Shown here in pieces: positions 3,028 to 47,900 of a stretch of 64,000 nt of DNA. Below the pieces are notes generated by a model that saw only the letters and a list, made by a program, of their open reading frames with translations, had not been told where the DNA came from and did no database searches. The stretch is taken from contig NC_049993.1 in assembly GCF_000003815.2 (NCBI RefSeq), positions 2,355,728 through 2,419,727 of the forward strand, written 5' to 3'. Each line of letters opens with the position of its first letter. The stretch's first letter is position 1. Position numbers and translations under genes: made by a program. Source of the stretch: Branchiostoma floridae (taxonomy: Eukaryota > Chordata > Leptocardii > Amphioxiformes > Branchiostomatidae).

Positions 3028-6000
3028 CTATTCTTGATAGTTGGTGATCTTTTCGTGATCACCAAGGAGTGTCCGGGCCATACGAAGTCCATAAAGCGAT
3101 TTTGCAATGGAAGGGTGTGCAGTGTCCTCACCATAGATACTCCGCTTCATATGCAGCGACTGTTCATAATAGCGGACGGCCATTCTGTACTCGCCAAGAT
3201 TCCCATAGACGGCACCCAAGTTGGTCAGTGATGCGGCGATGTCCGGATGCGGGGTGGTGTCACCATAGAGAGTCCGTCTCATCTGTAGTGACTGTTCATA
3301 AAATCTGGCAGCCTTTCCGTTATCGCCAATCTGCCTCCAGGCATTACCCAGCTTGTAAAGTGAGTTAGCGATGTCAGGATGCGCAGTGTCCTCACCATAG
3401 ATAGTTTGCTCCATCTCTAGTGCCTGTTCGTGAAAGGTAAGGGCCTTTCCGTGGTCGCCGAGGACCCCCCACGCGTTGCCCACAATGTTGAGTAATTTGA
3501 CATTGTCAGGATGTGCAGCATCTTCGCCATAGATAGTCCTCTTAATCTGTATTGACTGTTGAAGAAAGTTGGCGGTCTTTCTGAGATCACCAAGGTGACC
3601 CCATGCTTTGCCCAAGTTTTTGAGTGATTCGGCAATGTCGGGATGTGCATTGTCCTCACCATAGATACTCCGCCTCATTTGTAGTGACTGTTCATGATAA
3701 CTGACTGCCTTCCTGTAATCACCAAGGCCTGCCCAGCCATTAGCCAAGTTGTTAAGTGCACTGGCGATATCAGGATGTACAGTGTTCTCACCGTGGATAC
3801 TCCGCATCATCTGTAGTGACTGTTCGTAATAGCTGAAGGCCTTCCTGTGATCACCAAGCACATCCCAGGCGTTACCCAAATTGTTGAGAGTCTTGGCGAT
3901 ATCAGGATGTGCAATGTCCTCACCGTGGATACTTCGCATCATCTGAAGTGATTGTTCATGATAGTTGACAGCCTTTTTGTTATCACCAAGGTGAGTCCAA
4001 ATGTTACCCAAGTTGTTACGTGAGGAGGCGATGTCCGGATGTGCAGTATCCTCACCATAGATACTCCGCCTCATATCCAGTGACTGTTCGTGGTATTTGA
4101 CAGCCTTTTTGCGATCACCAAGGTGGATCCAACAGTTACCCAAGTCGTTTAGTGAGTTGGCAACGTCTGGGTGTGCATTGTCCTTGCCATAGACACGCCG
4201 CTTCATCTGTAGTGACTGTTCATAAATGCTAAGGGCCTTTCCGTGATCACCAATGTGATTCCAGGCGACACCCACGTTGTTGAGAGTGTTGGCGATTTCA
4301 GGGTGTGGAGTGTTCTCACCGTAGATAGTCCGCTTCATCTTTAATGACAGTTCATAATAGCGTAGGGCCTTCCTGTGATCACCGAAATCACTCCAGGTGA
4401 CACCCAAGTTGGTAAGGGAGTCGGCAATGTAGGGATGTGCAGTGTTCTCACCATAGATACTTCGCTTCATCTGCAGTGCCTGTTCATAATAGCTGGCGGC
4501 CTTTCTGTAATCACCAAGGTAGCTGAAGCTGGCACCCAAGCTGTCGAGGGTGACGGCGATGTCAGGATGTGGAGTGTTCTTACCATAGATACTTCGCTGC
4601 ATCTGCAGTGCCTGTTCGTTATAGTTGACGGCCTTTCTGGGATCACCTAGGTTCCTCCAGGTGTCACCTAAATTGTGGAGTAATGTTGCAGTGCAAGGAT
4701 GTGGAGTGGTCTCACCAGCGATGCTCCGCTGCATCTGTAGTGACTGTTCATAATAACCAAGAGCTTTTCTGTGATCCCCAAAGTCCCTCCAGGCGGTACC
4801 CACGCTGTTTAGTGTCTTGGAGATGTCAGGATGTGCACTGTGCTCACCATAGATACCCCGCTTCATTTGTAGTGACTGTTCAAGATAGCTAGAAGCCTTT
4901 CTATGGTCACCAAGATCACTCCAGGTTTCTCCCAAGTTGTCGAGTGATGCGGCAATGTCCGGGTGTGAGGCCTCTCTACCGTACGTGGAAAGAACGTCCT
5001 GTAGTGCTAACTTCGCGCACGAATTTGCTTTTTCGTACTCACACAGACTTGTGTATACCTGTGCTTGTAATGTTAGTGAGTTATCAAACAGACTAGACGG
5101 TTCTTCTTCCAGGATTTCGTTTTGTGAAATAAAGGCCTTTAATGGCGTCGCTGTATTATGGTACCTCATCAGTTGTTTTGAATTTGAAAAGTAAAACACT
5201 TTCGTCAACTTTTCCCTGAAATCCTTGTTGACAGGCATGGACAATAAGGTGGACATGTTCTCCACCTGCCCACGGTTGTTCATGTATGTCCGTACCCTCA
5301 GTTCTGCTGAGATGCTGACCAGCACCATCAGGTGATGCGCGTTCTCACTGCTGATGACTCCGTTCTTTCGCATCGTCTCAATAGTCTCCCAGATTGTGGT
5401 GGGCCGGATACGATGGAATAGAGCCCAACAAGATATCGCAAGGGTAGAAAATCGATAGATTTCTTTCTTCACATTCAGCAGACTAGATGTTGGAGCTTTA
5501 GGTGTGAACGTTTGAGTATTTGTATCTTCGATCAATATGTCCAATGCCTGTGACACTGGTATTGTCCCTTTGCTACGTTCGAGTTGCTGTGCCCACAAAG
5601 TAGAGTACTCATCGATCAAGTCCTGATCTCCTGTGATCAAACACACATTTTCCAATACGCTAGTGAGATGGTAGCCTTTCTTAAGATAAAAATTCAGGTC
5701 AGCTAGCATGATTGAGATCATTCCCATTGGTGTATCGATAAGTTCGCATCTGTTTCCCCTGCCCAGTGGAGTCTTACATGCGTGTGGCATGGCTCCATCG
5801 AACGCAAAACCGCGCGGTGTCACAGAGTCATAGTACCAGTTGTGCAGTGGGGAGTCGGAGAAGAAATCATTAAGCGATTTGATCCCCATGGAAGGAAGGA
5901 TGGTTTCTCCCAGATTGATGACTTTGAGATGCAGGTAGTGAGTAAGGTTACGGAAATACTCAACGTTGCTCTCTGTATACTTGCTTATCAGGATGGCAAA

Positions 6001-14868: not shown

Positions 14869-14968
14869 NNNNNNNNNNNNNNNNNNNNNNNNNNNNNNNN
14901 NNNNNNNNNNNNNNNNNNNNNNNNNNNNNNNNNNNNNNNNNNNNNNNNNNNNNNNNNNNNNNNNNNNN
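14869..14968. other. Assembly gap (100 N)
   Basis: One hundred unknown bases, a placeholder length, so the true distance may differ. It falls between the intergenic repeats and the likely 3' region of RIC1. Confidence 0.99.
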
Positions 14969-17116: not shown

Positions 17117-20100
17117 TCATGACAACGCACACTGACCGCTGTCCTGTGGTAGTTCCGTCTCAACAACAGATTGCTTTTCCTCGTTCTCGGGATTTTCCGT
17201 GTCGCTGGTGTTGCCGTGGAAACCGAGCGCGTGAAAGTCTGCAGAGGTGAGCGATGACTCGGGGGTGGGGATGGGGGTGACCTGAGGTGACCCCTGAATG
17301 TCCACGATGCCTGTTAGGACCTCGGCCTGACCACGGATGACCAAGAGAAACGGTTTGTATCCAGGGCTGGGGAGACAACAATGAGGACATTTTATTAATC
17401 CTGGAATTAAAGGGAGGTTTGTAGCTAGCCTAAATCATTTTCCGTAGCCTCGATTTTGAATCCTATCGAGTGCCCAAGGTGCGACACTCTTAAAACTTCC
17501 CCCGGGAAATTATAAAATCTAGACCCTCTGAAATGCTATATTTCCTGCATTTTAAGGTGTAAATTTTGCTGGTAGACTAAGTTGATTAATGGCATCTGTT
17601 TTGGTGAAAAATTACACAAGAGAGACAGTTCTACTATTATCTTCACATATTGATTTTTGTCCATCACAGACGATGGATTGGGCAAAATTTTTTCCCGTCC
17701 CAAGCTGCAGAATTCCGTCAAAGGCTGGCTACAACCCTGCTTGAAGGTGAAAAACACTATATGTAAATTTGATATCCACTTCAAATGTTTCAACGTTGGT
17801 GAAGAAAAGGTGTCACTTTATTTGAGATTTGTATCTTATATTTCAGCATAACAGATATGTCCTCTACTTCTCCCCAAAAGGGAATGCATACCTTAATTCA
17901 GTATGGATATCTCTTTTATAGAGAAAATACAGTACCAGTAATACAGGAGTCATAACTTATGGGCTAGTAAACACACTGTCTTACCACTCGGTGTCTGCCC
18001 AGAGTTCCAGATACGACAGTCCCTCCCTCATCCTCCCCACCACGTCAATGGGCATGTCCGTCAGGCTGGCGGTGTTGACGACCCGTGTCACGCCCATGGA
18101 GTCCCTCAACACCAGGGAGATCAACATGGCCCACTCCAGACACCCCGCCTCCATCATCACATGCAGCAGGTATCTACGTTCAAATAATGATTGACAGTTA
18201 ACTGTCTACTCCAGACACCCTGCCTCCATCATCACATGCAGCAGGTATCTATGTTCAAATAATGATTGACAGTTAACTGTCTACTCCAGACACCCTGCCT
18301 CCATCATCACATGCAGCAGGTATCTACATTCAAATAATGATTGACAGTTAACTGTCATCACACTCCAGACACCCTGCCTCCATCATCACATGCAGCAGGT
18401 ATCTACATTCAAATAATGATTGACAGTTAACTGTCCACTCCAGACACCCCGCCTCCATCATCACATGCAGCAGGTATCTACATTCAAATAATGATTGACA
18501 GTTAACTGTTCACTCCAGACACCCCGCCTTCATCATCACATGCAGCAGGTATCTACATTCAAATAATGATTGACAGTTAACTGTTCACTCCAGACACCCC
18601 GCCTCCATCATCACATGCAGCAGGTATCTACATTCAAATAATGATTGACAGTTAACTGTCATCACACTCCAGACACCCTGCCTCCATCATCACATGCAGC
18701 AGGTATCTACGTTCAAATAATGATTGACAGTTAACTGCCAACTCCAGATACCCTGCCTCCATCATCACATGCAGCAGGTATCTACATTCAAATAATGATT
18801 GACAGTTAACTGCCAACTCCAGATACCCTGCCTCCATCATCACATGCAGCAGGTATCTATGTTCAAATAATGATTGACAGTTAACTGTTTCACAGTGAGG
18901 AGGCCCCCTGCATGCCAGCTCCTGGGACAGGGCCTCTTGCTACATTTGAAAATGATTGACAGATAACTACCTACCTCAGCTGTGTTTCACAGTGAGGAGG
19001 CCCCCTGCAGGCCAGCTCCTGGGACAGGGCCTCTAGCTACATTTGAAAATGATTGACAGATAACTGCCTACCTCAGCTGTGTTTCACAGTGAGGAGGCCC
19101 CCTGCAGGCCAGCTCCTGGGACAGGGCCTCTAGCTACAGTTTGAAAATGATTGACAGATAACTGCCTAACTCAGTTGTGACTTTCACAGTGAGGAGGCCC
19201 CCTGCAGGCCAGCTCCTGGGACAGGGCCTCTAGGTACATTTAAAAATGATTGACAGATAACTGCTTACCTCAGTTGTGTTTCACAGTGAGGAGGCCCCCT
19301 GCAGGCCAGCTCCTGGGACAGGGCCTCCAGCTCATCCAGATTGGCCAAGTTCCACATACTGTCATCTAGAGTCAGCTCTGAATCATCAGCCACGATAGAC
19401 GCCGACATCTCCGATGTTTCAGTAGCTGCTGTGCTGCCATTGTCTCCTGTAAGAGAAATTTCCAACCATAAGTCCAATAAAGTCCACTCTTTTGGAAACA
19501 AGCAATGTCATGTTTAAGCCAGGCTTAATTCTAGCACACACACACACACACACACGTTCTAACTGCATTTTTCCCCTGGAAATTATTAGTAAAGTTTTGA
19601 AGTCTTCTTTGTCTTCTGACAAATATCCAGAAACATAAACATGCTGCATCTAACCTGCACAGGTCCATGTGCTGGGTTTTATACATAAATGTCCTATGAT
19701 GTAGGTGTATGTAGATTGTTATTAGCTGCATTGACTGTTACCACCTATTTAAGTATAAAAGGAAAACTAGTAATGGTTCCTGAACGGATTTAAGTATGAT
19801 CCATGCTTCCTAACTTCTGAGTGGTGCAGGTAATTTTCAATGTTAAAAAAGCAGAAAAAAGCCCTGCTACTCACCTTTACATTTTAAGGTAAACACATTA
19901 CTGCAAAAATAAAACAACTGCAAACATTTCACAATTTACAGGTTGATAATAGTTTAAACGTATCACACACACACACACACTCACACTCATGTACCTTTCT
20001 GATTAGAGTTGAACTGTCTGGAGTCCATCGCTTCCTGTCGTAGTTCGTCACACAGCAGATCCATGGACGACCGGAGGGACGGGCTCGCATACATCCCATT

Positions 20101-23100
20101 CGGTCGGAGCCGGTTCGGTCCCTCGCTGATATCGTTTAGCGTCATTCCATTCATTCCAATTTCCAAGGCATCGTAGGAAGACGATCTGGATCTTTCTCCC
20201 ACTGAGCCAATCTTTGACCCTATTATCGAAGAACAAATTCTTACTAAAACAAGAAGCTTTTTCACAGAAAGAAAGAAAGGACAGATTTTATTATGGCTGT
20301 ATGTTAGATTACAGGAAAATAAAATCTTCTTTCAGAGCATAATTTATTGATTGCACAATCATCAAGACAATCAAAAACATGTACAAAAAAAGTACAGAGG
20401 AAAGGGCAATAAAAGTCATCAATATTAGTAAGTTAAGGCATTTGATTTGAAAATTATAGTTCAACATTTTAAACATGGCTTTACAAACTGTTCTTTCAGA
20501 ATGTATGTCTTTTCAGTAACTTAGGCTTCTGAATTTTGTGTTGACAAAATGTACTCAGTTTGCCATCATACATCTGTACTTCTTGATACAATTCATTATA
20601 AAACAAATGTAACTAGGTCCTTCCCGATAAGTATAATACAACTAGCAGAGTAGAGCAGTTTAGAGTAGTGCATGTGGGGCCATTGTTGATTCGATATAGA
20701 TGACATCCCAAACTGATGCGACCATCAGTCCCTTAAGTTTATTACAAAATCTAAGTGACCAGAAAGATTGAACAAACGCACAGAATATGGTACATTTATA
20801 CAGAATACATGATAGTCTAAGATTTTTCATTTTGGTTCTTGTTACTTACCGGTATCTAAGCACATGACTTCTTCTTTGACTTTTGGAATTAATTTTCAAA
20901 ATTCTTCGAAGTATTTTGTTTGCCGCAATTTACAGGAAATATTTGCTCATTTTGAAATTGCTTTGTACAATTTACAGTACGTGTATATCTGAAAAAGATA
21001 TACAACAGACGTTAAACCGGAGAGTGAGTGGGTGTGATAAAATTCCTGCACACATGGATGTCATCTGTATCATCCCATCAACAAGGCCTAGGCGTAAAAA
21101 GAGGAGAAAAGGGCCCAAAGACTCACCGCTATTAGACCTGGATATCACCTGAGACAACGCAATCACTAGAAAAGAGAGGAGCACCAAATGTGAAGATAAA
21201 CCATGATAGTGAAATGTAGCATTAGGGTATGGTGGAGAACAAGCTAAATGAGAAGTGTAAAAATGGCAGCCATGGAAGGTGAAAATGGGTCGGACACAGT
21301 GTTGCAGCCAGCACCTGTCCTTCCGTCCTTTGATGGAATTGTGTAGCTGGCGACATAAAAAATTTGCCCATTCCGTCGTCTGTGACGGACAAAAATCCGT
21401 ATGTCAAGACATAAAAAACGGTCTCACTTGTGTAATTTTTCACCCAAACAGATGCATAGTCTACCAGCAAAATTTACACCTCAAAATGCAGGAAATAGCA
21501 TTTCAGAGGGTCTGGATTTCAACATTTTTCGGGGGAGCTTGTCCCCAGAACATTGCGCCGTGGACGGTCGATAGATTTCAAAATCAAGGGGACGGAAATT
21601 CAGGCTGGCTACAACCCTTATCGGACATGACCTAAAAAGGCTTAAATATACAATCGTATCTGGAGAAGTCCATTTTCAAGCTTTTCTTCTTCTTTCTTTT
21701 TCGTCAACACGAATGGGAAACAGGATATCCTAAACGTACCCCAGAGCCTAATTTATTTTTGACAGAAATGAGGTACCCATTTTTACACCTGGGTGGAGTG
21801 AATAGAGTCATTTGAAAGGTACAAGATCTGTATCATGACAGGGTTCAAACCATTGACATCCGGTGTTCTTGAACAAACATCCTGCAGTTACCCCACACCA
21901 CCCCAGAATCTTTTCTAGGAAGATTAAAACATTTTTATCTTCTGGTTTTCAAAGCAACATAGTGACTGTAGAGAAAAATGAGTAGTTTTATAGTCTATGG
22001 CTGCCATTTTTTAAAAGGAACAGAGCACCACAGGAAACTAGAACAAAAACAATGGAGGTAACAAGAGAAAGAAAAATAAAGTTGTATTTTAGTACCTGGC
22101 ATTGGCCACTGGAAGTCCCTGTGAAGTGTGTGTAGTGATGTTACAAAGTCATCCACTCTGGCTGCTCTGGACCTGTAATTATGTATAATTATACCATATT
22201 CAAGTGTTGTGTAAAATGGATGTCTGAGAAACCATTCTGCACCATTCTGCACCTCTGTACTTGCACCAAAGCTGTATGAGGTACTTTTAAACAAATGTAC
22301 CAACAAAATTCTAAACCTCTGTGTAATACTATGTAAATGCATAAAATGTATCTAAATCATTGTACCTAAAACCTTTGTACCTGTATCCTATACCTGTATA
22401 TAAACCTGAGGCCATATATTTGCACCTTACAGCACTTATTATATGTAGCTGGCTAACAAATCTCTGTAATACTATGTGTATCTTAATCTCTGTACAAACA
22501 CTCTAAATCAGGTACCTGCAGTTAGATGTATATCTTTTGTACCTGTTTCAAAACCTCTATATATCTGTGTACCTAACTTCTGTGCCTGTACCTGAAGCTA
22601 AACCTAAAAATATGTCGTACTACATTTAGGAGTCCTAAGCAGTCCTACATGTATGTACATGTACATAATGTACGATACAGTTGCGGATGTAGCAATGGAT
22701 TTTTTTCCTGTTGCTTTTAAGTTGCAATTTCCATATTCAACCAAATGTTGCCTACCTCTCCTTCTGTAGCCAACCAATCAGCTCAAAGTTTAGATGAGCC
22801 GCGAAGGAACCTAGTTCTCGGAGTCGACCGGCGCCAAGCAACTTTCGAGCGTGTCGCTGTAGAATCACGTCAATGAAGAAGTGTTCCGCGGTATCTTCCA
22901 GGTGTTTCAGTGTCCTGTAGGAAACATTAGTTAATATTTAAAATCCATATGGACTTTCGATAAGGCCATGTTGATTTGATCATATTAAGTATCTCAGTTT
23001 TCATCCGTTTCCAACAAAAAAGTTTTTGACCATAATGTACATCATACAAAGCAGCTGCAAAATGATCAAATATTTATTTGCCAACAAATATTTAAAAAAA

Positions 23101-29100: not shown

Positions 29101-32100
29101 TATAACATTACCTGGATGTCTACTAGTAACCTTCATCAGTGTAACAATAACTTACCATTGGATACATTTGATTTACATAAATTATGCAAACGTCTTTACC
29201 TCAAACAAGTCTTTGGGGCTTCCCGCCGAGGCAAACAGGTATGACCAGAGAGCGATCTCCGTTTTCCTGGCGCAGTGGACGATGGTCTGCAGGAACTCTG
29301 GGAACTCTCGGATGAAGTCCACTATTCTGGGTAGCAGGGGGTCTGTGGGAGGGGACACAGTTACAAAAATATTGACAAAAATTCCCCTGCAGTACCAAAG
29401 CAAGCTGGTAGGGGGCTGAAGTCTACAACAATTTTTCTTAGAAAAGTTAAACTGCAATTTCCAATACGACAAATTTGACTTACTTAAATTTTGCTTCATT
29501 AAAGCAGTGGATTGCCCATTTCTCGACAAAGACTGGAGTCGATCGGTCGGAAATTTGGGTACATGGCATTGTTGCCCCTACGGCCGTCGAGGCTATGGGA
29601 CCGGTGAGGTGAGGTGAGGTGAGGTACTGTAAGTCCAGTTCATTGTTCACCTTGAAAATTGCAGTTCAGCTTTTCTTGGAAGAATGACTTCTACCAACAC
29701 AGATGAACTTCAACCTACAACACTTTTTGCTTACGTTGAAAGCTATCTGCAACCAAAGAATCATGACCACAGCACATCCACAACAAAAGATACAACAACC
29801 AGAAGTTCTGCTACTGCATGTACAAAGGTCACACACCAGAGGGCCCAAAATCCACTATGGCCTTCATCTTTGCCAAAGAGAAATTACTCGACAAGCTACT
29901 AGATATGACTTTGAAAAGGGTCAGACTTTTCAGATAACATCTGCTAGCTTTCGTCAGTGACACCAGGGCTCGAAATACCACATGCATATGCAAGTTTGTG
30001 CAAGTAAAATTGGTGTGGTGCAAGTAAGTTTAGACCAAACTTGCACCAGTGCAAGTTACTTTTGTCCTCTAATACCTGACATTAGAAAAAGCTTACACAC
30101 ACCGAGAATATTGTCTGTCATTGAAAGGTAAACGAAAATAACACTGAATGAAAAAAGTCTAAATTTGTTATTTCTAAATTTGGTCTGACATCCAGGTAAA
30201 CTATTTTTTTAAACAAATCCATCTCTACAATGCTAATGATTCCTATGGTGCTGTCTTACCTTGATTTGCATATGAGTTACATTTGCATACTAATTAGTGA
30301 CTTTAATATGTTCAGCTGGTTTTTCCAGTTATATGTATTGTATTGAGTTGTTCTACCACTTCATTCTGGAGACGCTTAAGACTAGTTACTGTGATGGATG
30401 TCACTCGAAGAGTCCAGAAGAAATCTATGGATCTTATCGAGTTGTAGACATTGAATTGTCTTTAATTGAGGCTAAATTCACAGTTTTTATGAAACAGTTT
30501 GTACAATTTCAAACCAAAAATAAGATACGCTACGGAAAAACAAATATCCAAACATGTGGTCTTTACCGGTATGTATCCCCATTTACTCACGTACATTTGC
30601 AAATTTTCAGAAGAAGAATAAAGGGTTAACAGTTCACTATTTTGGGTTGTGCAAGTAAGTTTCTTTTGGTGCAAGTTACCTTTGGCTTAACTTCCACAGG
30701 TGCAAGTTGACTGAAAAGTGTATTTCGAGCCCTGGACACTAAATAAAATCTTATGTTCTCTGAAGCATCTGAACATTTTCAAAGTCATATCAAGTTATTT
30801 CTGGTGCATCTTACTACCTGGATGCCTAACTTCATTGATGGACCTCCATTTTCCCAACCCCCATCCACAAACAATATTGCATCATTTGGCATAGGCTTGG
30901 TGTATCTTTCAGTTAAGTTAGTACAGTAGAAGCCGCTTATTCGCCCGTGAATTTCGTGCAATTATCTAGCTGGTGCAATAATGTGAAGACCACATCAGTT
31001 TGTGATTTGGGCATTTATCCGTTGTGCAATTAACTGGCTTCTACTGTACCTGTATATCTAACCTTCTTCGACATTAACACAATCGTTTGCCTGTACCTGG
31101 GATAGGTTCATGAGCTGTAGCCTCTTCTTCTAGAACCTGGTGCAACAACAACTCCAACACGTGGCTAAAGTACGGCAGGGAGCGACAACTCTTCGCTATC
31201 TGTAGTGCGTGAGAACCCAGGCTGGAATAGATACAACACAAACGTTACAAACAGCTCCAGCACATGACTGAAGTATGGCAGGGAGCGACAACTCTTCGCT
31301 ATCTGTAGTGCGTGGGAACCCAGGCTGGAATAGATACAACACAGTGTTACAATCAGCTCCAACACATGGCTGAAGTATGGCAGGGAGCGACAACTCTTCG
31401 CTATCTGTAGCGCGTGAGAACCCAGGCTGGAATAGATACAACACAAACGTCACAATCAGCTCCAACACATGGCTGAAGTATGGCAGGGAGCGACAACTCT
31501 TCCCTATCTGTAGTACGTGGGAACCCAGGCTGGAATAGCTACAACACAGTGTTACAATCAGCTCCAACACGTGGCTGAAGTATGGCAGGGAGCGACAACT
31601 CTTCGCTATCTGTAGCGCGTGAGAACCCAGGCTGGAATAGATACAACACAAACGTTATAAACAACTCCAACACATGACTGAAGTACGGCAGGGAGCGACA
31701 ACTCTTCGCTATCTGTAGTGCGTGGGAACCCAGGCTGGAATAGATACAACACAAATGTTAAAAAAAAACTCCAACACAAATTGGCTTAATCATGGTAGGA
31801 AGCCCAGGCTGGAATAGATACAACACGACATTAAATACAACTTCAACACAATTTGGCTTAGCATGGTAGGGAGCAGCAACTCTAAGCTACATGTACTTGT
31901 ATGTACTACATGTTCAGAATTCGTTTTCCAGAAGAACATCCATGATATGGTTGTTGAAAAAACTGTTTGCCTCTATTTTAACAATTTTCTCCTATTTTAT
32001 ATTCTTTCTATGATTTGTCACAACGTATTGCCTATGATGTATCTAAATATAGAAGACCACAGGGAGAAATTTTTTTACATTACTATTAATAGGTTTTAGA

Positions 32101-35100
32101 TTGCTTACTTTCTTCTTAACAGCTCTCTGACAATATGATGCAGGTAAACTTGAGTCTGGAACAAGAGAATCACACAATTGGTATTGTACATTAGAAATTC
32201 TTCAACTTCAAGACATATTTATTTTCTAGCAACTAAGCAGACATGACAAATATTTGAATGTACTGTTGAAGTTTTCTTTCAGCAAAGAAAAAAATTGTCG
32301 AGTTTCCCTAAAGTTTGTTGTTGAAGACAATCATTTTGCTGTACATAAAGTTTAAAAGATACCAGCATGTCTTCATGTGTGGCTATATCATAATTTATAA
32401 CATAGGTAATGAAACTGCAGTACCACAACAGCATGACAGGGGACAAAACCAACACAACATAGACTGAGGAGAGTTACAACTGTGGAACAGTATTGGTTAA
32501 AAAGTCACTACTCACTGTTCTGTCCACGACATTGAAAGGGAACAGCCTTGTAGGTGTGGAGTCGGAGACACTCGGAGACGCGCAGTCCTGGAAATCGTAC
32601 TTCATGGTGTCGTTGGCCGCACCCAGTACCACGGCATCCTCGAACAGTACCGCTAAGGAATGGGCCAAACATTCATATGTCAATCAGATGTGTCTTCATT
32701 CCACCAATCTCATTTGAATAAACTCATTTGCATAAATGGGAACTTTACCTGCACAGCAACCATTATACTTATCTATCAATAGTAATTTTAAGATAGTAGA
32801 AAAAATTGAATTCAAGGTAGCTTTTGGTCTTTGATTTCCAGGTATTTTTTAAAATTTCAATTATGCCTTTTATATTTAGTGGGTGCAGTGGATTGCGTTG
32901 GTACCCTTTTCTCAAGTAGGTGGAGTGAGAAAAGTTGTCTAACATGCCTTTCCTAAGGGCACAACACTGGTGGCTTTTTAGGGTATTCGAACCAGGGACA
33001 TCATGGTTCTGGGTCACACACCCCAACCGTCAAACCAACATGAACTGACTCCTAACTTACCTAGTGGGTATATGCTGAGCTGGAACGGCAGCATGATTCT
33101 CTTGGACAGGAAACTGTGTCTCTTCTCATCATTCCTTGGAAACAGCGGCAGCCACACCTAGCAACAACAAAAAAATGCATTAAACCCCTGTCACAGCCAG
33201 CTATGGCCTCTAAACCCCTCCAGACATGGTTGGGAGTTAGGCATAGGCAATTTTACAGTGAACATGGCTTTAAAAAAATGACTCTCATTTTCTTGTCGTA
33301 AACCATCAAAAGCTTTCAATAGATTGTGACATTTATGCTGGAAAAAGATGAAAACATTGCTGTTTTTTTGTTCATAATTGAGCTTTTGTGTTAACTGTAT
33401 ATAATTTTGCATGTGTATATTTTTTCAAATTGCACATAAAAATCATGCTAACATAATCTACATGCATATGCAACTTACATGTATTTATGGTATTGAAATA
33501 TCATGGGATACAGACTGGACATATAAGTCAAGACCTGAACCTGAGTGGACCAGAACCAGAGTTTTGATATACTAAGCACTATACTGTATGCAAGTGGTAG
33601 TTGTATCATCCACAAAACATTACTTCAGATACTTAAGTTAAAAGAATGACATTTTGATGCAACATGTATGTTCAATAACAGAAGAGGGCTGTACAATATC
33701 ATATATATCAAACCCGACAACACAATGTATGTCGACTGATTATCATAAAAACATGTATCATTCCTTTTAGAAATAATAAAAAAATTAGAATGTAAGTTCA
33801 TCATTATGTTACAATTCTAAGAACCATAAATCCATACATAAAATAAAGAGCTTACCAACAAGCTTTTGATCAGTCCTCTGATCCTTCTCAAGTTGAAATG
33901 ACCCAAAGCCTACAGGATTATTTTCTCAGGGTAGTGGCCATTTACATCAGAGCCCACCAACCTTCCCTCAATCGAGGCGGGGGCCGATACCGACTGCCAA
34001 GCACATTTGACCCCTTGCTGATAGGCTCTGGGTCATTTCAACTTGAGAGGGATCAGAGGACTGATCGAAAACTTGTTGGTAAGCACTTTATTTTGAGTAC
34101 AGATATAAGGTTCTTATAATTGTAGCGGCAGTTGCAGGCTGAGTGATAAAATAAATGGTGTGAAATCCGTACCTTCATGCCAGACGCTCCACAGCCCAGC
34201 CACAGCGCTTCACTCAGGTGCACCTTGTCCGGGCTGGAGCGGCTGGACGACCACATGTTCTCTACACATGATGCCAGCACAACAGGTGCACAGAATGGCA
34301 GCTGTAGACAGGTGGGGAAGATTGGAATATTTTAGTATAGAATACAACACAGTTGGGGTGGGTACTGGTACAGGGAATTTAGGTACGGGTATACAGTCCA
34401 GGTCTAGAGGATCAGGTCCAGGTGCAGATACAGACTTGATTGTTTGTGAAAACGTGGAATGGCAATACTCAAAACAATGGTCCATTTTTCTACATAGGAT
34501 TCTGTTTGGGGGAGTATCTAACAACACTGGAATATTCATGTGAACAACAATATAAGCACCAGTGACAGGGTTGTTAGTGCTTAGATGGTGTTCAGCACCA
34601 AGGACAGGGTTGTTAGTGCTTAGATGGTGTTCAGCACTAAGGACAGGGCTGTTAGTGCTAAGATGGTGTTCAGCAACAAGGACAGAGTTGTTAGTGCCTA
34701 GATGGTGTTCAGCACCAAGGACAGGGTTGTTAGTGCTAAGATGGTGTTCAGCACCAAGGACAGGGTTGTTAGTGCTTAGATGGTGTTCAGCACCAAGGAC
34801 AGGGTTGTTAGTGCTTAGATGGTGTTCAGCAACAAGGACAGAGTTGTTAGTGCATAGATTGTGTTCAGCACCAAGGACAGGGTTGTTAGTGCCTAGATGG
34901 TGTTCAGCACCAAGGACAGGTTTGTTAGTGCTAAGATGGTGTTCAGCACCAGTGACAGGGTTGTTAGTGCTTAGACGGTGTTCAGCACCAAGGACAGGTT
35001 TGTTAGTGCTAAGATGGTGTTCAGCACCAAGGACAGGGTTGTTAGTGCTAAGATGGTGTTCAGCACCAAGGACAGGATTGTTAGTGCTAAGATGGTGTTC

Positions 35101-35909
35101 AGCACCAAGAACAGGATTGTTAGTGCTAAGATGGTGTTCAGCACCAAGAACAGGGTTGTTAGTGCTAAGATGGTGTTCAGCACCAAGGACAGGATTGTTA
35201 GTGCTAAGATGGTGTTCAGCACCAAGAACAGGGTTGTTAGTGCTAAGATGGTGTTCAGCACCAAGAACAGGTTTGTTAGTGCTAAGATGGTGTTCAGCAC
35301 CAGTGACAGGGTTGTTAGTGCTTAGACGGTGTTCAGCACCAAGGACAGGGTTGTTAGTGCCTAGATGGTGTTCAGCACCAAGGACAAGGTTGTTAGTGCT
35401 TAGATGGTGTTCAGCACCAAGAACAGGGTTGTTAGCGCCTACATGGTGTTCAGCACCAAGGACAGGGTTGTTAGTGCCTAGATGGTGTTCAGCACCAAGG
35501 ACAGGGTTGTTAGTGCTTAGACGGTGTTCAGCACCAAGGACAGGGTTGTTAGTGCTTAGATGGTTTTCAGCACCAAGGACAGGGTTGTTAGTGCTTAGAT
35601 GGTGATCAGCACAAAGGACAGGTTTGTTAGTGCTTAGATGGTGATCAGCACCAAGGACAGGGTTGTTAGTGCTTAGATAGTGTTCAGCACCAAGGACAGG
35701 GTTGTTAGTGCTAAGATGGTGCTTTGCACCAAGGATAGGGTTGTCCAACAACATCACAAATTGACTCACTATTTTCTCTTTTTTCCTGACGTCTCCGTTT
35801 TCCTTTCCCGAGGTCATCGACCTGTCCCTCTGTAGCATCAGCAGTCGCCCCGCCACGTTCACGATCAGGCTTTCCGCCTCCCGTCTGGACGATGTTTGTT
35901 TAGAGGATG
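17117..35909 (-). CDS. RIC1: RIC1 exons 18-34 (RIC1 domain and C-terminal half)
   Basis: Coding exons: 18, 35909-35770; 19, 34301-34173; 20, 33157-33061; 21, 32652-32516; 22, 32155-32109; 23, 31221-31097; 24, 29342-29200; 25, 28648-28562; 26, 27939-27892; 27, 27443-27157; 28, 22914-22756; 29, 22172-22096; 30, 21165-21127; 31, 20219-19995; 32, 19446-19269; 33, 18173-17985; 34, 17366-17117 (TGA at 17119-17117). Exons 21-26 correspond to the Pfam RIC1 domain, with [30 protein letters not shown] and [19 protein letters not shown]. Exon 27 holds a proline- and arginine-rich linker ([21 protein letters not shown]), and exons 30-31 a serine-rich linker. Both linkers are poorly conserved in the family. 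Exon 23 and exon 33 each have several extra upstream copies of their acceptor edge; the copy nearest the exon body was chosen because it alone keeps frame and homology. Confidence 0.92.
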
Positions 35910-38900
35910 CTGAAACAAACAAGAATGTTAACATTAGCACAAACATAAGTTGACATCTTGCAATTCAGATTTCTCTGACTTTCTCCATGCTATTGTATGA
36001 AGATGAAATATTGTATGATGATTATAAAATCTATAGGTTAAACAGTTCTTTCCATAAAATTCCAAACTTCCAAATTCCTAAATTTGAAACAGATAATATT
36101 ATTCTTTCTGCATTGATAAGGTTTAGCACTGTAAATCAAAATGAACTGTTGGACTTTAAAAAAAAAATTATTAAGTTTTCCTGTTGCCAATCCCAAAAAA
36201 GATGCTTTGAAAAAATTATTAGTCTTCTGTGAAACAAATCACACGAACTCCGAGGAAATGACTTGACATACACAATTCTCAGTGCAAATTCTATAAATAG
36301 TAAAATTCAGATTGACCAGGGATGCTACTATGTCACATATGTCTGGTCGTCAACTTTGACCTCTCTGACAGTAACTACCAACCTCCAGAAGTCTTAAGAT
36401 CCCTCCACTTTAACTTAAAGATCCCAAAACTCCTTACCATCCCATGCTCCACTCCCTTGGTTCCCAAATGAAACCTTTTCTAAACAAATCCCTCACCTTC
36501 ATTTGCATATGAGTGATCAAATTGACCTCTGACCTGTTTCAGTCCGGAGAGAAGTCAGGGTGACTGAGATGACGGTCACAGCATGGGGGATGTAGCTGGC
36601 CAATGAGATCTCCTGTAGCAATGTGAGGCTGGCACTCGGATCTGAAACACAACCACAGCAGATTTTACAGTCTCTGTAAGATGTCGTCTGATTGGTCAGA
36701 TTCCTTCAAGGTACAGCTGGGTTCTAGAGTTTTGACATTTGGTTTAATTCAAATATGTTACAAAATACTAATAAGTTTAGTCTCAAATTATTGTATCCTT
36801 AGGTAACAGAAAGATACAGTACAGGTCATGGAATATGCATCAAATTTGGGAAAACTGCCCATTATCTTTTCACAGGACATTGTGTAATCTTTCGCAGGAC
36901 TCTCTGCAATCTATTGCAGGATATTACGTCTTCTTCGGAAGGATGGTCCAGGTAATAACGTACGCAGAATAGCACTTACTCAAGGAAACATGATTTTGGA
37001 AATGCTGCAGATAGCATACACTGCATTTCATGAGTGACACTAAGGATATCTTGTTGGAGAGCAGGTTCTATTTCCTTAGACTATGAATTAAGGAGATAAA
37101 GACAATATTTTTCTTGCTCCTGTACTCAAGTAACAGAAGGTAATTGACTCATCTGCTGAATTTATTTACTAAAAATGCAGAAGCTCTTATGGTGTTTTGA
37201 CGTTCGCAGTTTTCGCAGTGACCACTTCACCGCAAAAACTTAAAACCACAGCGAAATTTTTTCCATGGCAGTAAGAGACTACTGTGCATGGTGTTACAGC
37301 AAACTTAAACCACTGTAAAAAGTCCTTTTACTGGCTACCATGACATTAAATCTCCGAAAACTTAAATTCATTTACAGTATCCTGCCTGAAATAAAAACAC
37401 ACACACAGACAGACAGACTTGAGAAGGGAGGAGGAATGTCTGCCATGCTGAAAGTGGAGAAAAGGGTTGTTGACATGCAGTCACCCTGTGCGATGTTTCA
37501 CAGAAAATACATGCAAATATCAATATATCACATTCAATCCACTAACCAAGCCTACGGTAGAGAGAAATGCAATTATAACTAGATCTCGCATGGGTATGGT
37601 ACCATTAGAGTTGTAAATAAAATAAATTTGAATAATTGGACCAAAATTTCAAAATTTGCATACCCAGGACAACTCAAATGATACCATCGCCTCAAATCAG
37701 CACAGTCATGTAAATGAGTTCAGGTGCAAATATGTGAACACCTCTTACCCATGACACCGAACCCAATGCTAAGGCCTGAAAGAAAGGAGTGTGAAAGGTC
37801 ATGTGACGTCATGTGATTGTGTGATGTCACCAGTGGACAGTCATTGCAGGCACAGAAGAGCTATAAAGTAGTCTAAGCTGAACACCCCTCATGCAAAGTG
37901 GTACCTTCTAAAGTTATAAGAACAAAATCCTATTCCTGACAGTTTATCGATTTAGCTTGAACTTTGGAAAACATTTCTACGTATGACTTATTTAGCTATT
38001 CCTTCAGCAGAATCTTATGAAGTCCCAGCTTTTTTTTACCTCCGTTTTTATAACAGACTTGCAAACAAAAACACAGGTATTTTGTTTATCTTACAACTAC
38101 CAGCTGTACCTTTCTAATAGTATACATCTTTATTCATACAAGATATCAGGAACTACTAAATGCTGTGGACAGCCAATGCTACTCAAATTCAATCCTGCTG
38201 ACAATAACATCTAGGCCATAGATATACAATCAAGTCTACAAGTATCTTCACCTTTCACCTATGAACCTTTGACCTAGTGCTATCTATCACCATTAGCATG
38301 AGAGCCTCTAGTTCTAATTCAAATTTGGCCTCCACCTGAACTTTAACCTTTCACATGCAACTGATATTTTGGTCTCCTCTTAGACAAGAACTTCTGACAC
38401 ATGCCCATTACATCTACTTGGAACTTGTTGACCTTTGAACTCCCTTTCACCTTTAACCTATGATCTTTAACATGCATTTGCTCCTTTTTGCAGTCACCGT
38501 TGTCCTTAAACCAAACTTTGAGGATTCAAGACATGCAAAACTACTACCACTACCTCCTGAGCTTCTACTACACCTTTGACCTTCCCACTTTCACCTCTAA
38601 CCTTTGCCCTGTTAAAAGCAGTCACCTAGAGGCTTTGCAAGCCAGTATTAGTGTAGTATTACCAGACAGACTGGAACGCTGGGACCTACCGCTGCTCTCC
38701 ACCACACTGGGGCCGCCACAAGTGGGGGCTACATGTTAGGGAATACAGTATTTAGTCTTTAAAGTCTAACATAATACATGTACAGGTTTTTCATGAGACA
38801 CCTTTTCTGAGTATGTTGGAGAACAGAACACATCAGCTGTCAAACATGTCAACATGCATCAATGAAAAGCCGGTATAGTATTACAGACTGAGCTAGTTCT

Positions 38901-41900: not shown

Positions 41901-44900
41901 GTTCGCAAGATGAAAGCATTGTATATTATAACTTGAATGTAAATGTTTAAAGAGGAAAAAAGGATAATCTGACGATGGGAAATGAACCACCAGTGTCATA
42001 GACAGTTGTACTGCAGACTGAGCTACTTTTACCTTCACTACATCTTGGTGATTTTCTAAGGTGGTATATACTGTTTTAGCTTTCAACATCATCAGCTACA
42101 ATGAGCTTTAATGATGAAGGTAAACGACAACGGTGACAGAAGAAAGAAAAAAAAGGACGTTTACCTTCCAAAACATAACAACAAAAGGTGACTGACCTGT
42201 ACAACCAGCCATTGTTTGTTTCCCACCAGTATGTTACTCTGTCTCACTGGTTTCTGCGGGGATGAATCGCCGGATCTCGTGATGGACTCCCGTAACGGTC
42301 GGTTCATGTTGGCGTCCTTCCACTGTTGTTTCATGACCAGGTCTCCCGTGTTAATGAACAACTTGTCCTCCCCTTGCAGGAATAGGTGTTCATGATTCGT
42401 CTAGAGTAAAGGAGAAAAAAAAGGGCAATAAAAAGATGTGCACTATACACAGGCGACCTCTTGCAGAACATATGGAAACTGCACTGCAGAAATACAGAAA
42501 CAAGTCATACATAGTATACAATAAACAACTTGTCATCGCCTTGCAGGAATAGGTGTTCCTGATCCGTCTATTGTAAGGGGAAAAAATCAAGAATCAAAGA
42601 TGTGCATTATACATCAGCGCCCTCGTGCAGAACATATGGAAACTGCACTACAGAAACACAGAAGCCAAATATTATGAATAACATGTCCTAGTCTTGCAGG
42701 TGTAGTTGCTTGTGATTTGTCAAAAGAGAAAACATGGCAATCGAAGACATGCATGCATTGGTGCCCTCTAGCAGACCATGTGTAAACTGCACTGGAGAAA
42801 CAAAGGCAAAGACAAGCCCAAATTATGACCGACTTGTCCTGGCATTACAGAAACAGGTACATGCTCATCAATGTCTTGTCTATACAGCAGGGAAAAGACT
42901 GGAACATTAAGTAAGCGCCCTCTTGCAGATCATATACAAATTACACTTCAGAAACACAAAGGCAGACAGGTCAAACACTTTTTTCGTCTTACCGCACAAG
43001 GGTTGACTGTGAGCGTCGACTTGACAAACTGGAGTTGTAGCAGCTCCGAGGTGGCCGTGGGCAGCTCCATAACCTCTGTACGGTCTAACGTTTCACACGC
43101 CATCCACAGCTGGTACCCTTCCATGCTCCAGCACTGAAACATTGGTGAGATACCTTAGTTTCATGATAAGGACACAGTAGCACACTGGTTAGAGACCAGG
43201 GTTGGACACTAGCCTGATTGTACAGGGCATGTGAAAGTGCTGATCGGGCAAGCACATGTCCTACTCCACTTGCCCGATCAGGCAAGTAACATTTTTCCAT
43301 GAGTGAGATTTTGATATACATGTGTTTGTTACTTTTCACATTCATGGCATCAGGCATTGGTCAACACAGAAAAATATAGAGAGAGCTAATAGAAATTCTA
43401 CTACTGGAAGTAAAAATACATAGAGAAATGTTACTTAAATTTCGAAGCAAGCGAAAAGTTGGTTCGGGCAAGTATATTTTTCATGTACTTGCCTGATAGG
43501 ACAAGTGAATTCTAGAAAACTTGTTAAACCAAGGAGACCTTTAAATGAATGGTTCGATCCCCGGACGAGTCATACCAAAGACATGAAAAATGGTACATGC
43601 TGCTTTCTCTGCTCAACATCAGCATTAGGGAAAGACTATGATAGTCCCACGCACACCACTGCAAGTAGACTAGTCCCCTGCTGTACGAATTGCACAAAGT
43701 TGTGTGGCCAAAGGGCTACAGAAATGGAGATGGGCACCGCCCTATGCGCCATCTGGTACAGGATGGACTTCAATATCATCTAAATACTCAGACTGCATCT
43801 GGGACTGCATCTGGGACACCTTGGCTGCAGTACTCTGAAGATTATTCATGACACAACAATGTAGTTGTGGTACTGTTTTACTTACCATTGACTTTATTCT
43901 GAAGAGGTGCAATCTGAGGGATTCTTGATACAAGCTGTAAGGAAGTCAAACACATACATGTACCACAGTGAGCCATTTTGTATCCACTCCTTTCTTTTCA
44001 CTCTTTTCATTTAACTTTCCACCTTCAACATAGACAAACAGTTTACCATTGTTACACTAATGTTTAAGTGCTTATGTCACCTTAGTTTCTGATTACAAAC
44101 AAAGATTCTGGTGCAACATACAGTCATCCTTTTGACGTTATTGAATATGGAATCTTCCAAATCATATATCAAGCTAATTCTTTATTCTTGCCAGCAAGAA
44201 ATCGGGTTAATGTCTGCCCATGGTGTCATAGAAAACATGGTAGCCAATTCAGATCTTGGTATACCGCAACTCACGAAAAGTCTTTTGTTTTTTAGATGAA
44301 AAAAGAGCAAAATCAATTTTCTTGAAAGAATTCATCAACTCCCTGTGCCAGGCTCCGAAGCAGCTGCTGTGTTTACCAAGATGTCCAATTTGCCCTTGTT
44401 GACCAAGGGTCCAAAATGTCCAACTGACCCTTGTTTATGGCAGTAGGAAGCAAGAACTAAATTGACAAATTGTAAGATTCAATATTCAACAATTTCATCA
44501 TCATTATAATCACGGGTCGCTTGCCCGGATCATTTTTCACTTATAAGTCTGTACCTCAACCAGAATCTATGCATTATTTTGAACATTGATTACAATAGGT
44601 ATTATTATGTATGAGTTCAAATAAACAAAAGACCATCTACATACCCCTGATCTGCCCCTAAGGTACACATCAACAGAGCGCCGTACACGCTCCACACCGC
44701 CATCCCGCCACGGTCCCACGCCATCGCGAGTACGCAGCCGTCAGGCGACCATCTTAGTCTGGACACAGGACCGCACGCCATGCACGCATCTAAGGTTGAG
44801 AACATTGAAAAAGTAAGAATGGATCGAGTGAAATTATATGAAGCTTTTGTAGAGTACTTCAATGTGCAAGTATTGCAGGATTGGATATTTACTACTTATT

Positions 44901-47900
44901 TATTTATTTCTGTTTTCTTTATACAGGGTGGACACACTCAGTTAGTACAATGCTAAACTTTCTTCCACAACAAAAGTACACACAGACCAAATTTTCAATG
45001 ACCAGTCACCTTCTTCAGGATCAACACTGATGACCAATCACTTCAGATTTACTCGCGAGAGTTACAGACACATGATCTTATTACTAACATGTGATCCGGC
45101 GGACTATCAACAGCAATTGGTTGAGAGAATTGGAATTATATGGAAAATATTTTCAGGCCCTATTGCAGGGCCATTGAGAGTAAGAGGCCTTTTCCAATGG
45201 CAATGACAAACCCCTCTGTTTTGAACATCCGACCAACACCGCACTTTGGGTACCAACATTAAGCCTTACCTGGGTAATCTTTGGTAGAGAGTTCGAGTCT
45301 GTGTGAGACCTGTAGAGCTCCTGTCATGTCATCCACAGTGTAGACTACACCCAGCCCACTGGAAAACAACAAAAATGAATCAGATGTAAAAAAAGGATTG
45401 TAGATGTACCAAATACTGAATATCTTAAACCATGCCCTCAACAGGGCTCAAAATACTTTTTTCTGCATACCTGCACTGGTGTAAGTAACATTGAAAATTA
45501 CCTGCACCACTCTGGATTCAGTCTGGATCAAGCTAAAATTGTTCAGAAACCATTGCTATTTTTCTTTTATACTTTATTGGTGGTAACAGTCAATGTAGCT
45601 GCATGTATAACAATTGACAGACATCAACATCATAGAATGACTTAAGTACAAAACCCAATACATGGACCAGTGCAGGTTAGGTGCAGGTAGACACCAGAAA
45701 TACCTGCACTGCTCCAATTTTACCTGCACAAACCTGCAGATGCAGATGATATTTGGAGCCCTGCCTCAAGTACCAACCAAGGATTGATGTGTTATAACAC
45801 TTGTTCTTCCCTAGAACTATCGGGGACTGGAATCCTTTGCTGTCAAGTAATTCGTTTTCAATTAGATAGCTTCCAATGACAGTTGCCGTCAGATGTGCAA
45901 AGGTTAGGTGTGACAGGTTAAGTGTAATATAACCAGCTGTTGTCATGACACATGCCAATGCAAAGTCAATTTCAAAGTTAAAGAAGAGAAAGAATGAAAA
46001 TAAAAAATCTATTGTTCTGCTGACCACCTAAATTTTTTATGATGATGAAAACTTTTTTGACAACTTTTATTTCTTTCGTGACATCAATATAACTTGGAAT
46101 CATCATGGCTTAAACAGGACAATATATAGTCTAATAAAGTATGGTAAAACTTACTCTGTGCAGCCAAATGCTATGAGTCTGTATCTGTTGTTGACAGCTA
46201 CACAGGTGACATTCTCCAGACCCTGGGCCCAAACACCCTGTAGGCTCTATAATGGGAAAACATTACATCACAGTTCAACTACTAGTACACAGCTCCCTCT
46301 GGCAAAACACAGACAAACTGCAGTGTGAAATAAACACAGGTGACGTTCTCTTGTGGACACTACAACGGGTAAATACATGACTGTACATCACAGTTCAACT
46401 ACAAGTACACAGCTCCCTCCAGCAGAACATAGACAAACTACAGTGTGAAATAAACACAGACAAATATGCCAAAAACAATACTCTACTTGGGATTGTGAAA
46501 AAGCTTTTAAGCTTACTTTGGTCTATAAAGTGTTATCTCAAGGGGATAAATATAAGATATTTCACAAAGACAAATGATAAAACGTTACAATAAAAACATA
46601 TAGCAATTATTGACAGGTGTCACTCACATTGTTTTCTACTTTACCGGCCAACGTGTTGACGAGCCCCGCCCTCCCGTCCGGTAGTACGACAGCGAAACCT
46701 CCCAGGAGCCCGCTGTACTCGATATGTGTAAACGTGATGCCTGGAGTGTCCAGGGTAGACGCTGGGGGGAGGAAAAGATAAAATAATAAAAGCTTATCCC
46801 AAACTACATTTTTTCCATTTATAAAGTACTTGGAACTTTTTATTAATCTCCAAGCATATCCTATGATGGCATAAGATAGTACCAAACCTGCCATGGAGTT
46901 TAGTCCGCCAAGAGCTGTCCATTTGCCATGTAGCCAGTAGCCAAACACACTTCTGAGCCGGCTTCACTCCTCTGCTAGCTTTTGATACTATCTCTTCTAC
47001 CGTAGGATCTGCTTGGAGATTAACTTTTTAATGGCATAAGATAGTTACCAAACCTGCCAAGGAGTTTAGTCAGCCAAGAGGTTTTCATTTTGCCATGTAG
47101 CCGGTAGCCAAACACATTCCTAGGCCGGCTTCACTCCTCTGCCAGCTTTTGATACTATCTTATGCTACCGTAGGATCTGCTTGGAGATTAACTTTTTACA
47201 CCTTTTTGAAATTCAAACTTGTTGGTGCTGCAAACTTTTTGCAAAGTCGAGGTGGGTACTTTATTTGAGGTAATTCTACAGATAAATAGCAAAAGGAATT
47301 CATATAGACCAAGCTGGTGCTACAGTTCTAGGTATGATGCAAAACTTTTCATGTGTAAAACATTTCTCATTCCTGTTTTCATAACTTGTCGTTTTATTCC
47401 TAACAGCTTTTGAGCATATTGTCAGAACGATCAGAAGTTTATTTGCAAGTTGTTGCCTGAGGGCGAATTGCAACATGGGACATACAGAATATATAAAGTA
47501 TACATACAGAAAACAAAAGACTTTGTTTGGTATAGATAACAATGGTGACAAGTTGAGACAAGTGACTATTCTAGTAAAAGTATGGACTGCTGAGAGCTAC
47601 AATCTAAGCATATTGGGTTGACTTCTTTTCTGGAAGCAATGGAAGACACTTGTCCCACTTTTTCTATAATGAGTGGGTTATGTGACATTAACACTATAGT
47701 TTTGTGTTCTTTGAGAAGTAAACGTTTGGAAATTTTTGTGGATTTTGCATGCTTCTTCGATTAGTCAGGTTTACTTTGCACTGGTAGGAAACATTTATTA
47801 TCAAGGGCTGGCTTTTGGACTGACCTCTGGAATGTTGAAGGTCAATAGAGAAGGGAATAGACGCGATGTTGATCCCCGTTTTTCCGTTGACCACGCCGTC

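Follow-up and report, generated by a model that had tools for sequence, protein, structure and literature searches.

How does a gene keep its protein when one of its introns is filled, from both ends, with copies of the neighboring exon edges? The question is raised by a 1,095-nt intron of the gene RIC1 in a 64,000-nt stretch of the Branchiostoma floridae genome (here called the window; all positions refer to it). The intron is a striking case of the minisatellites known from amphioxus as "mirages," and it involves no new mechanism. Very probably, tandem duplications occurred across both boundaries of this intron and are neutral, the outer pair of splice sites is spliced, and no function of the arrays is required.

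The gene was identified as RIC1 by Pfam, with matches to the RIC1 family (PF07064) in two of the 10 stretches submitted (E = 5.1e-19 and 9.4e-12). The Pfam search gave no match in either of the two exons flanking 18174-19268. Using tblastn with an approximate human RIC1 sequence as the query, we obtained 27 collinear minus-strand blocks between 59460 and 17285, the weaker ones with E values of up to 0.035, and additional matches to the array copies. One more exon, near 20219, was placed manually, giving 28 blocks. The flanking exons, numbered 32 and 33 in the preliminary description, are the 25th and 26th of the 27 tblastn blocks (26th and 27th of 28 with the manually placed exon); some exons of the gene are unplaced. 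A search of solved structures with RIC1, in which E values up to 1 were allowed, gave four matches; the best had an E value of 0.11, and none was named RIC1. Spliced at 19268/18173, the two exons join in frame, and the conceptual translation parallels the human protein over the junction. Because the protein is continuous across that junction, we infer that this outer splice pair is the one used. The intron and its exons are as follows.

19269..19446, minus strand: RIC1 exon upstream of the intron, 178 nt, ending in CTGAG (in-frame join, human RIC1 match)
18174..19268, minus strand: RIC1 intron, 1,095 nt, GTAAGC...CGTAG, an exact GT..AG intron
17985..18173, minus strand: RIC1 exon downstream of the intron, 189 nt, starting with ATACCTGCTG (tblastn, in-frame join)

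The intron lies entirely within two abutting tandem arrays detected by TRF, which we call the tail array and the head array. When the region was shuffled 100 times by mononucleotides, TRF scores reached no more than 47, versus the observed 1286 and 797.

18886..19332, minus strand: tail array, TRF period 97, 4.6 copies, 95% matches, score 797 (unit alignment)
18133..18888, minus strand: head array, TRF period 75, 10.0 copies, 94% matches, score 1286 (unit alignment)
18888..18935, minus strand: tail copy 5, 48 nt, with the last 10 nt and the donor absent, fused directly to a head-array core (unit alignment)

The tail array repeats the terminal 58 nt of the upstream exon in five copies (four of them extra), with a stretch of intron that we refer to as the core; copy 2 measures 60 nt and copy 5 only 48 nt. 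The copies start at 19326, 19229, 19129, 19032, and 18935 (steps of 97, 100, 97, and 97). The head array repeats the opening ~37 nt of the downstream exon in 10 copies (nine extra), each with a core ahead of it, and its acceptors follow one another at steps of 75, 75, 79, 75, 75, 75, 79, 75, and 75. The layout of the intron is therefore exon tail plus core five times, then an exon head, then core plus exon head nine times, with the final head being the real exon. Extra copies that span the boundary itself number three at the donor (19268) and nine at the acceptor before 18173. Two head units contain an exact 16-nt palindrome, TGACAGTTAACTGTCA (at 18342-18357 and 18646-18661), which other units carry in shorter form.

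The core is common to both arrays and measures 35 to 36 nt between the donor position and an acceptor-like end. A core pattern allowing up to three mismatches matched 14 times in the 64-kb window, all 14 within the arrays, and in 100 dinucleotide shuffles it matched 0.06 times on average and at most once. The number 14 equals 5 + 10 - 1, which is the count to expect when the two multiplications lie on either side of a single core. Several fixed positions distinguish the cores of the tail array from those of the head array, which end in AG/ATACC (the slash marks the boundary). A mobile introner-like element was rejected as the source of the core, as the 64-kb window held no dispersed copies.

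These results bear out most of the preliminary description, which had the intron as nearly all tandem exon-edge copies, both units as carriers of one intron core, and the head array as nine extra copies of ~37 nt at a step of 75/79. Its four extra tail copies were also found, and its tail unit of ~50 nt had to be corrected to the lengths given above.

At the joints, adjoining sequences have a few letters in common. By eye, and allowing one base difference, the intron end TGTAG meets the exon sequence AGCTGGAGG via a common AG in the tail units. In the head units, also judged by eye, the exon sequence GGAGTGGGC meets the intron sequence GTAGGCAG via a common GGC, exactly in two units and with at least one difference in the rest. 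Such common letters suggest that the array units arose by short-homology duplication. Among nine head units, the mean number of substitutions plus gaps was 2.25 at lag 1 and 3.57, 4.33, 4.2, and 4.0 at lags 2 to 5, and units h3 and h7 are identical. With adjacent units most alike and a distant pair identical, the pattern is as expected from unequal exchange copying several head units at once.

Next to the exon copies, the arrays carry splice sites, which we scored with position weights derived from RIC1's own sites (22 donors and 24 acceptors). The tail array keeps the GT donor in three of five copies, and the head array keeps the AG in all 10.

19267..19268, minus strand: authentic donor GT, GAG/GTAAGC, score 10.9
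19168..19169, minus strand: broken donor of tail copy 2, TT in place of GT, GAG/TTAGGC
19070..19071, minus strand: decoy donor of tail copy 3, GAG/GTAGGC, score 9.6
18973..18974, minus strand: decoy donor of tail copy 4, GAG/GTAGGT, score 10.7
18174..18199, minus strand: authentic acceptor region, the end of the last core, with a TTAAC branch-like motif 25 nt from the AG and an acceptor score of 0.1

Both decoy donors thus come near the authentic donor in score, and every other GT in the intron scores 3.6 or less. The head-array acceptors score between 0.1 and 2.6. The authentic one has the lowest of these values, below 23 of the 24 other placed RIC1 acceptors, and all nine head-array copies equal or exceed it; by this score, its choice cannot rest on intrinsic strength. 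One AG in the tail array scores 5.4. A YTNAY branch-like motif 14 to 45 nt upstream of the AG-like end is found in none of the four tail-array cores, and TTAAC lies 25 nt upstream of the AG in all 10 head-array cores. For comparison, a YTNAY motif accompanies 19 of the 25 placed RIC1 acceptors, among them the authentic one. An RNA accessibility run put the authentic acceptor lowest of the 10; the same run was faulty (an impossible negative value at one donor) and was not used.

The three donors and 10 acceptors allow 30 direct pairings, and a single one of them, which joins the two outermost sites, is open. Joining the authentic donor to any of the nine inner head-array acceptors leads to an early stop. 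Of 100 paths that splice out two introns and keep a tail copy as an exon between them, none is open (seven AG sites in the tail array tried). The preliminary description had at least five donors facing 10 acceptors, with one pairing restoring the protein. The acceptors and the single restoring pair hold; the donors come down to three, copy 2 having TT and copy 5 having lost its donor.

Two-sided arraying was found only at the 18174-19268 intron among the placed edges of RIC1. Copies spanning the boundary within 3 kb occur at 3 of 25 placed acceptors (42400, 31221, and 18173) and at 1 of 23 donors (19268), and the remaining 22 acceptors and 22 donors had none within that distance; the first-exon donor and several other unplaced edges lie outside this survey. 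Matches at acceptor 46246 (one match) and donor 19994 (two matches, a simple repeat) were rejected as mirages, as the copies do not span the boundary. Two more mirages of RIC1 are one sided.

31147..31874, minus strand: second mirage, six extra copies of exon head plus acceptor, the outermost partial, with the authentic exon start at 31221 (TRF)
42353..42663, minus strand: third mirage, one extra boundary-spanning copy of exon head plus acceptor, with the authentic exon start at 42400 (TRF)

The second mirage has seven acceptor copies with CTATTCCAG/CCTGGG, and all six upstream acceptors lead to early stops. Near the third mirage, there is an additional partial exon-head copy that is 75% alike. 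Four of the five RIC1 arrays with a period of at least 60 lie over an exon edge, versus 1.75 expected (P = 0.048), a weak result because the arrays and the period limit were chosen after inspection. The limit excludes a 39-bp array, TRF rows were merged, and the edge list is incomplete.

Other repeats were seen in the gene and around it. The 39-bp minisatellite (30.5 copies, 34555-35744) lies in a RIC1 intron, and its 13-codon unit is open on the minus strand; an open reading frame of 584 amino acids (34210-35964) runs over it in the same frame as the RIC1 block at 35940-35818. A 167-bp duplication (2.0 copies, 46866-47198) in a RIC1 intron is clear of the placed exon edges. Elsewhere in the window are a 132-bp array of 13.9 copies (3112-4947), the reverse complement of which resembles TPR repeats by eye, and a 93-bp tandem array of 9.6 copies (92-992; TRF). 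Exactly 100 N at 14869-14968 mark an assembly gap 3 kb from the arrays.

A 2002 study of the amphioxus gene Adh3 reportedly gave mirages their name and described both somatic instability and duplication across exon edges. Repeated exon-edge duplication in amphioxus genes is also described in reports of 2010 and 2013 (PMC3087553 and PMC3902484). According to these two reports, mirages are boundary-spanning minisatellites in the Adh3, globin, TnC, and PGBD5 genes, the last two having been added in PMC3902484. Published unit sizes are 10 to 72 bp in Adh3, 60 and 108 bp in PGBD5, and 150 to 160 bp in the globins BflGb6 and BflGb9 (PMC3087553 and PMC3902484), and BflGb6 has six units in one haplotype versus three in another (PMC3087553). 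Mirages may affect 5' or 3' boundaries (PMC3087553). The Adh3 data and globin reverse transcription-PCR (RT-PCR) suggest that regular splicing is undisturbed, and the same reportedly appears to hold for TnC (PMC3087553 and PMC3902484).

The RIC1 intron resembles these cases in its tandem copies across the exon-intron boundary, on the donor or the acceptor side, with units of 75 to 100 bp, many but not all of which keep GT or AG, and with a normal protein from the outer pair by conceptual translation. The concerted turnover of amphioxus mirages is seen in its head array as well, in the closeness of adjacent units and the identity of h3 and h7. It differs in being arrayed at both edges, with one core in both arrays and little other content. 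A two-sided array with a common core was not seen in the passages of PMC3087553 and PMC3902484 that this comparison covers. Intron gain by tandem duplication, as in the potato case, likewise involves a duplication over an intron-exon boundary that copies the branch site, tract, and 3' splice site. There, however, a new intron results, whereas in RIC1 the junction was kept and an existing intron was lengthened, with no new intron or exon seen. Ordinary intronic minisatellites also have units of tens of base pairs, closest similarity between adjacent units, and copying of several units at once, but the RIC1 units contain coding sequence and splice sites.

A first duplication at a few common letters would have been followed by multiplication and homogenization through unequal exchange or slippage. 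With one end of the duplication in the exon and the other in the intron, one exon edge would stay intact and the extra copies would be pushed into the intron; the arrays may be tolerated because of this. The outer donor and acceptor would mostly be spliced, as those edges alone bound real exons, and mis-spliced products, carrying early stops, would be removed. Within such a two-sided mirage, the growth by edge duplication proposed in the preliminary description is supported (the core in both arrays; the count of 14), but the ancestor of a few dozen bases that went with it is not required. A functional intron of 35 to 36 nt that grew to 1,095 nt by duplications alone is a possibility we hold tentatively. 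The 14 cores have this length and little other intron sequence remains; against this, no placed RIC1 intron is shorter than 381 nt (22 besides the arrayed one). The longest of the 23 placed intervals measures 6,677 nt, and two or more of the long ones hold exons with unplaced edges. In a 35-nt intron, TTAAC would moreover be separated from the donor by about a dozen bases, which is generally too close for animal spliceosomes. The identical present sequence also results if the head array arose first in an intron of normal length, a deletion of the middle then brought the donor next to the first core, and that joint was multiplied into the tail array. This order of events, to which we give a chance approaching even, never needed a 35-nt intron to be spliced. 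A deletion can be read from the point at which tail copy 5 meets the head array, with the donor and 10 exon bases absent there, although one extra event is needed and the intron holds no remnant of a lost middle. We lean slightly toward the array-first order, because 35 nt is much shorter than any other intron placed in RIC1 (381 nt or more).

Could the arrays instead serve the gene? The preliminary description saw the intron as possibly a generator of splice noise. Ten near-equal weak acceptors, nine of which give early stops from the authentic donor, would suit a row tuned to produce early-stop transcripts and to lower RIC1 output via nonsense-mediated decay. Early stops are nevertheless the ordinary outcome of reading intron, and published mirages are reported not to disturb splicing (PMC3087553 and PMC3902484). 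We regard such a regulatory switch as very unlikely. An assembly artefact, with the repeat collapsed or expanded or haplotypes merged, is likewise very unlikely, although assembly could have influenced the copy number. There is the 100-N gap in the window, and copy numbers of lancelet PGBD5 differ between two assemblies (2 versus 7 and 3 versus 6; PMC3902484). Yet the RIC1 units carry substitutions and indels, with adjacent units most alike, and both arrays run cleanly into open exons. Other lancelet mirages were supported by RT-PCR of transcripts (globins; PMC3087553) or by re-examined reads (PGBD5; PMC3902484).

The neutral two-sided mirage leaves existing knowledge unchanged in kind. A further reading, which we consider doubtful, is that the signals of the one core became split, with donors lacking a branch motif in one array and branch motifs plus acceptors lacking donors in the other. 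No unit could then be spliced alone, and only the outer exons would be defined. Introns might in this way be rebuilt to normal length from exon edges without the gene ever being broken, with the inner acceptors leaving a low background of early stops. The RIC1 intron offers a natural test of spliceosome choice among 10 near-identical acceptors, since the true one is surpassed in strength by others. It shows that exon-edge minisatellites can form almost an entire intron, and from both sides. If haplotypes differ in copy number, one could read directly in this lancelet gene how fast and in what manner intron length changes.
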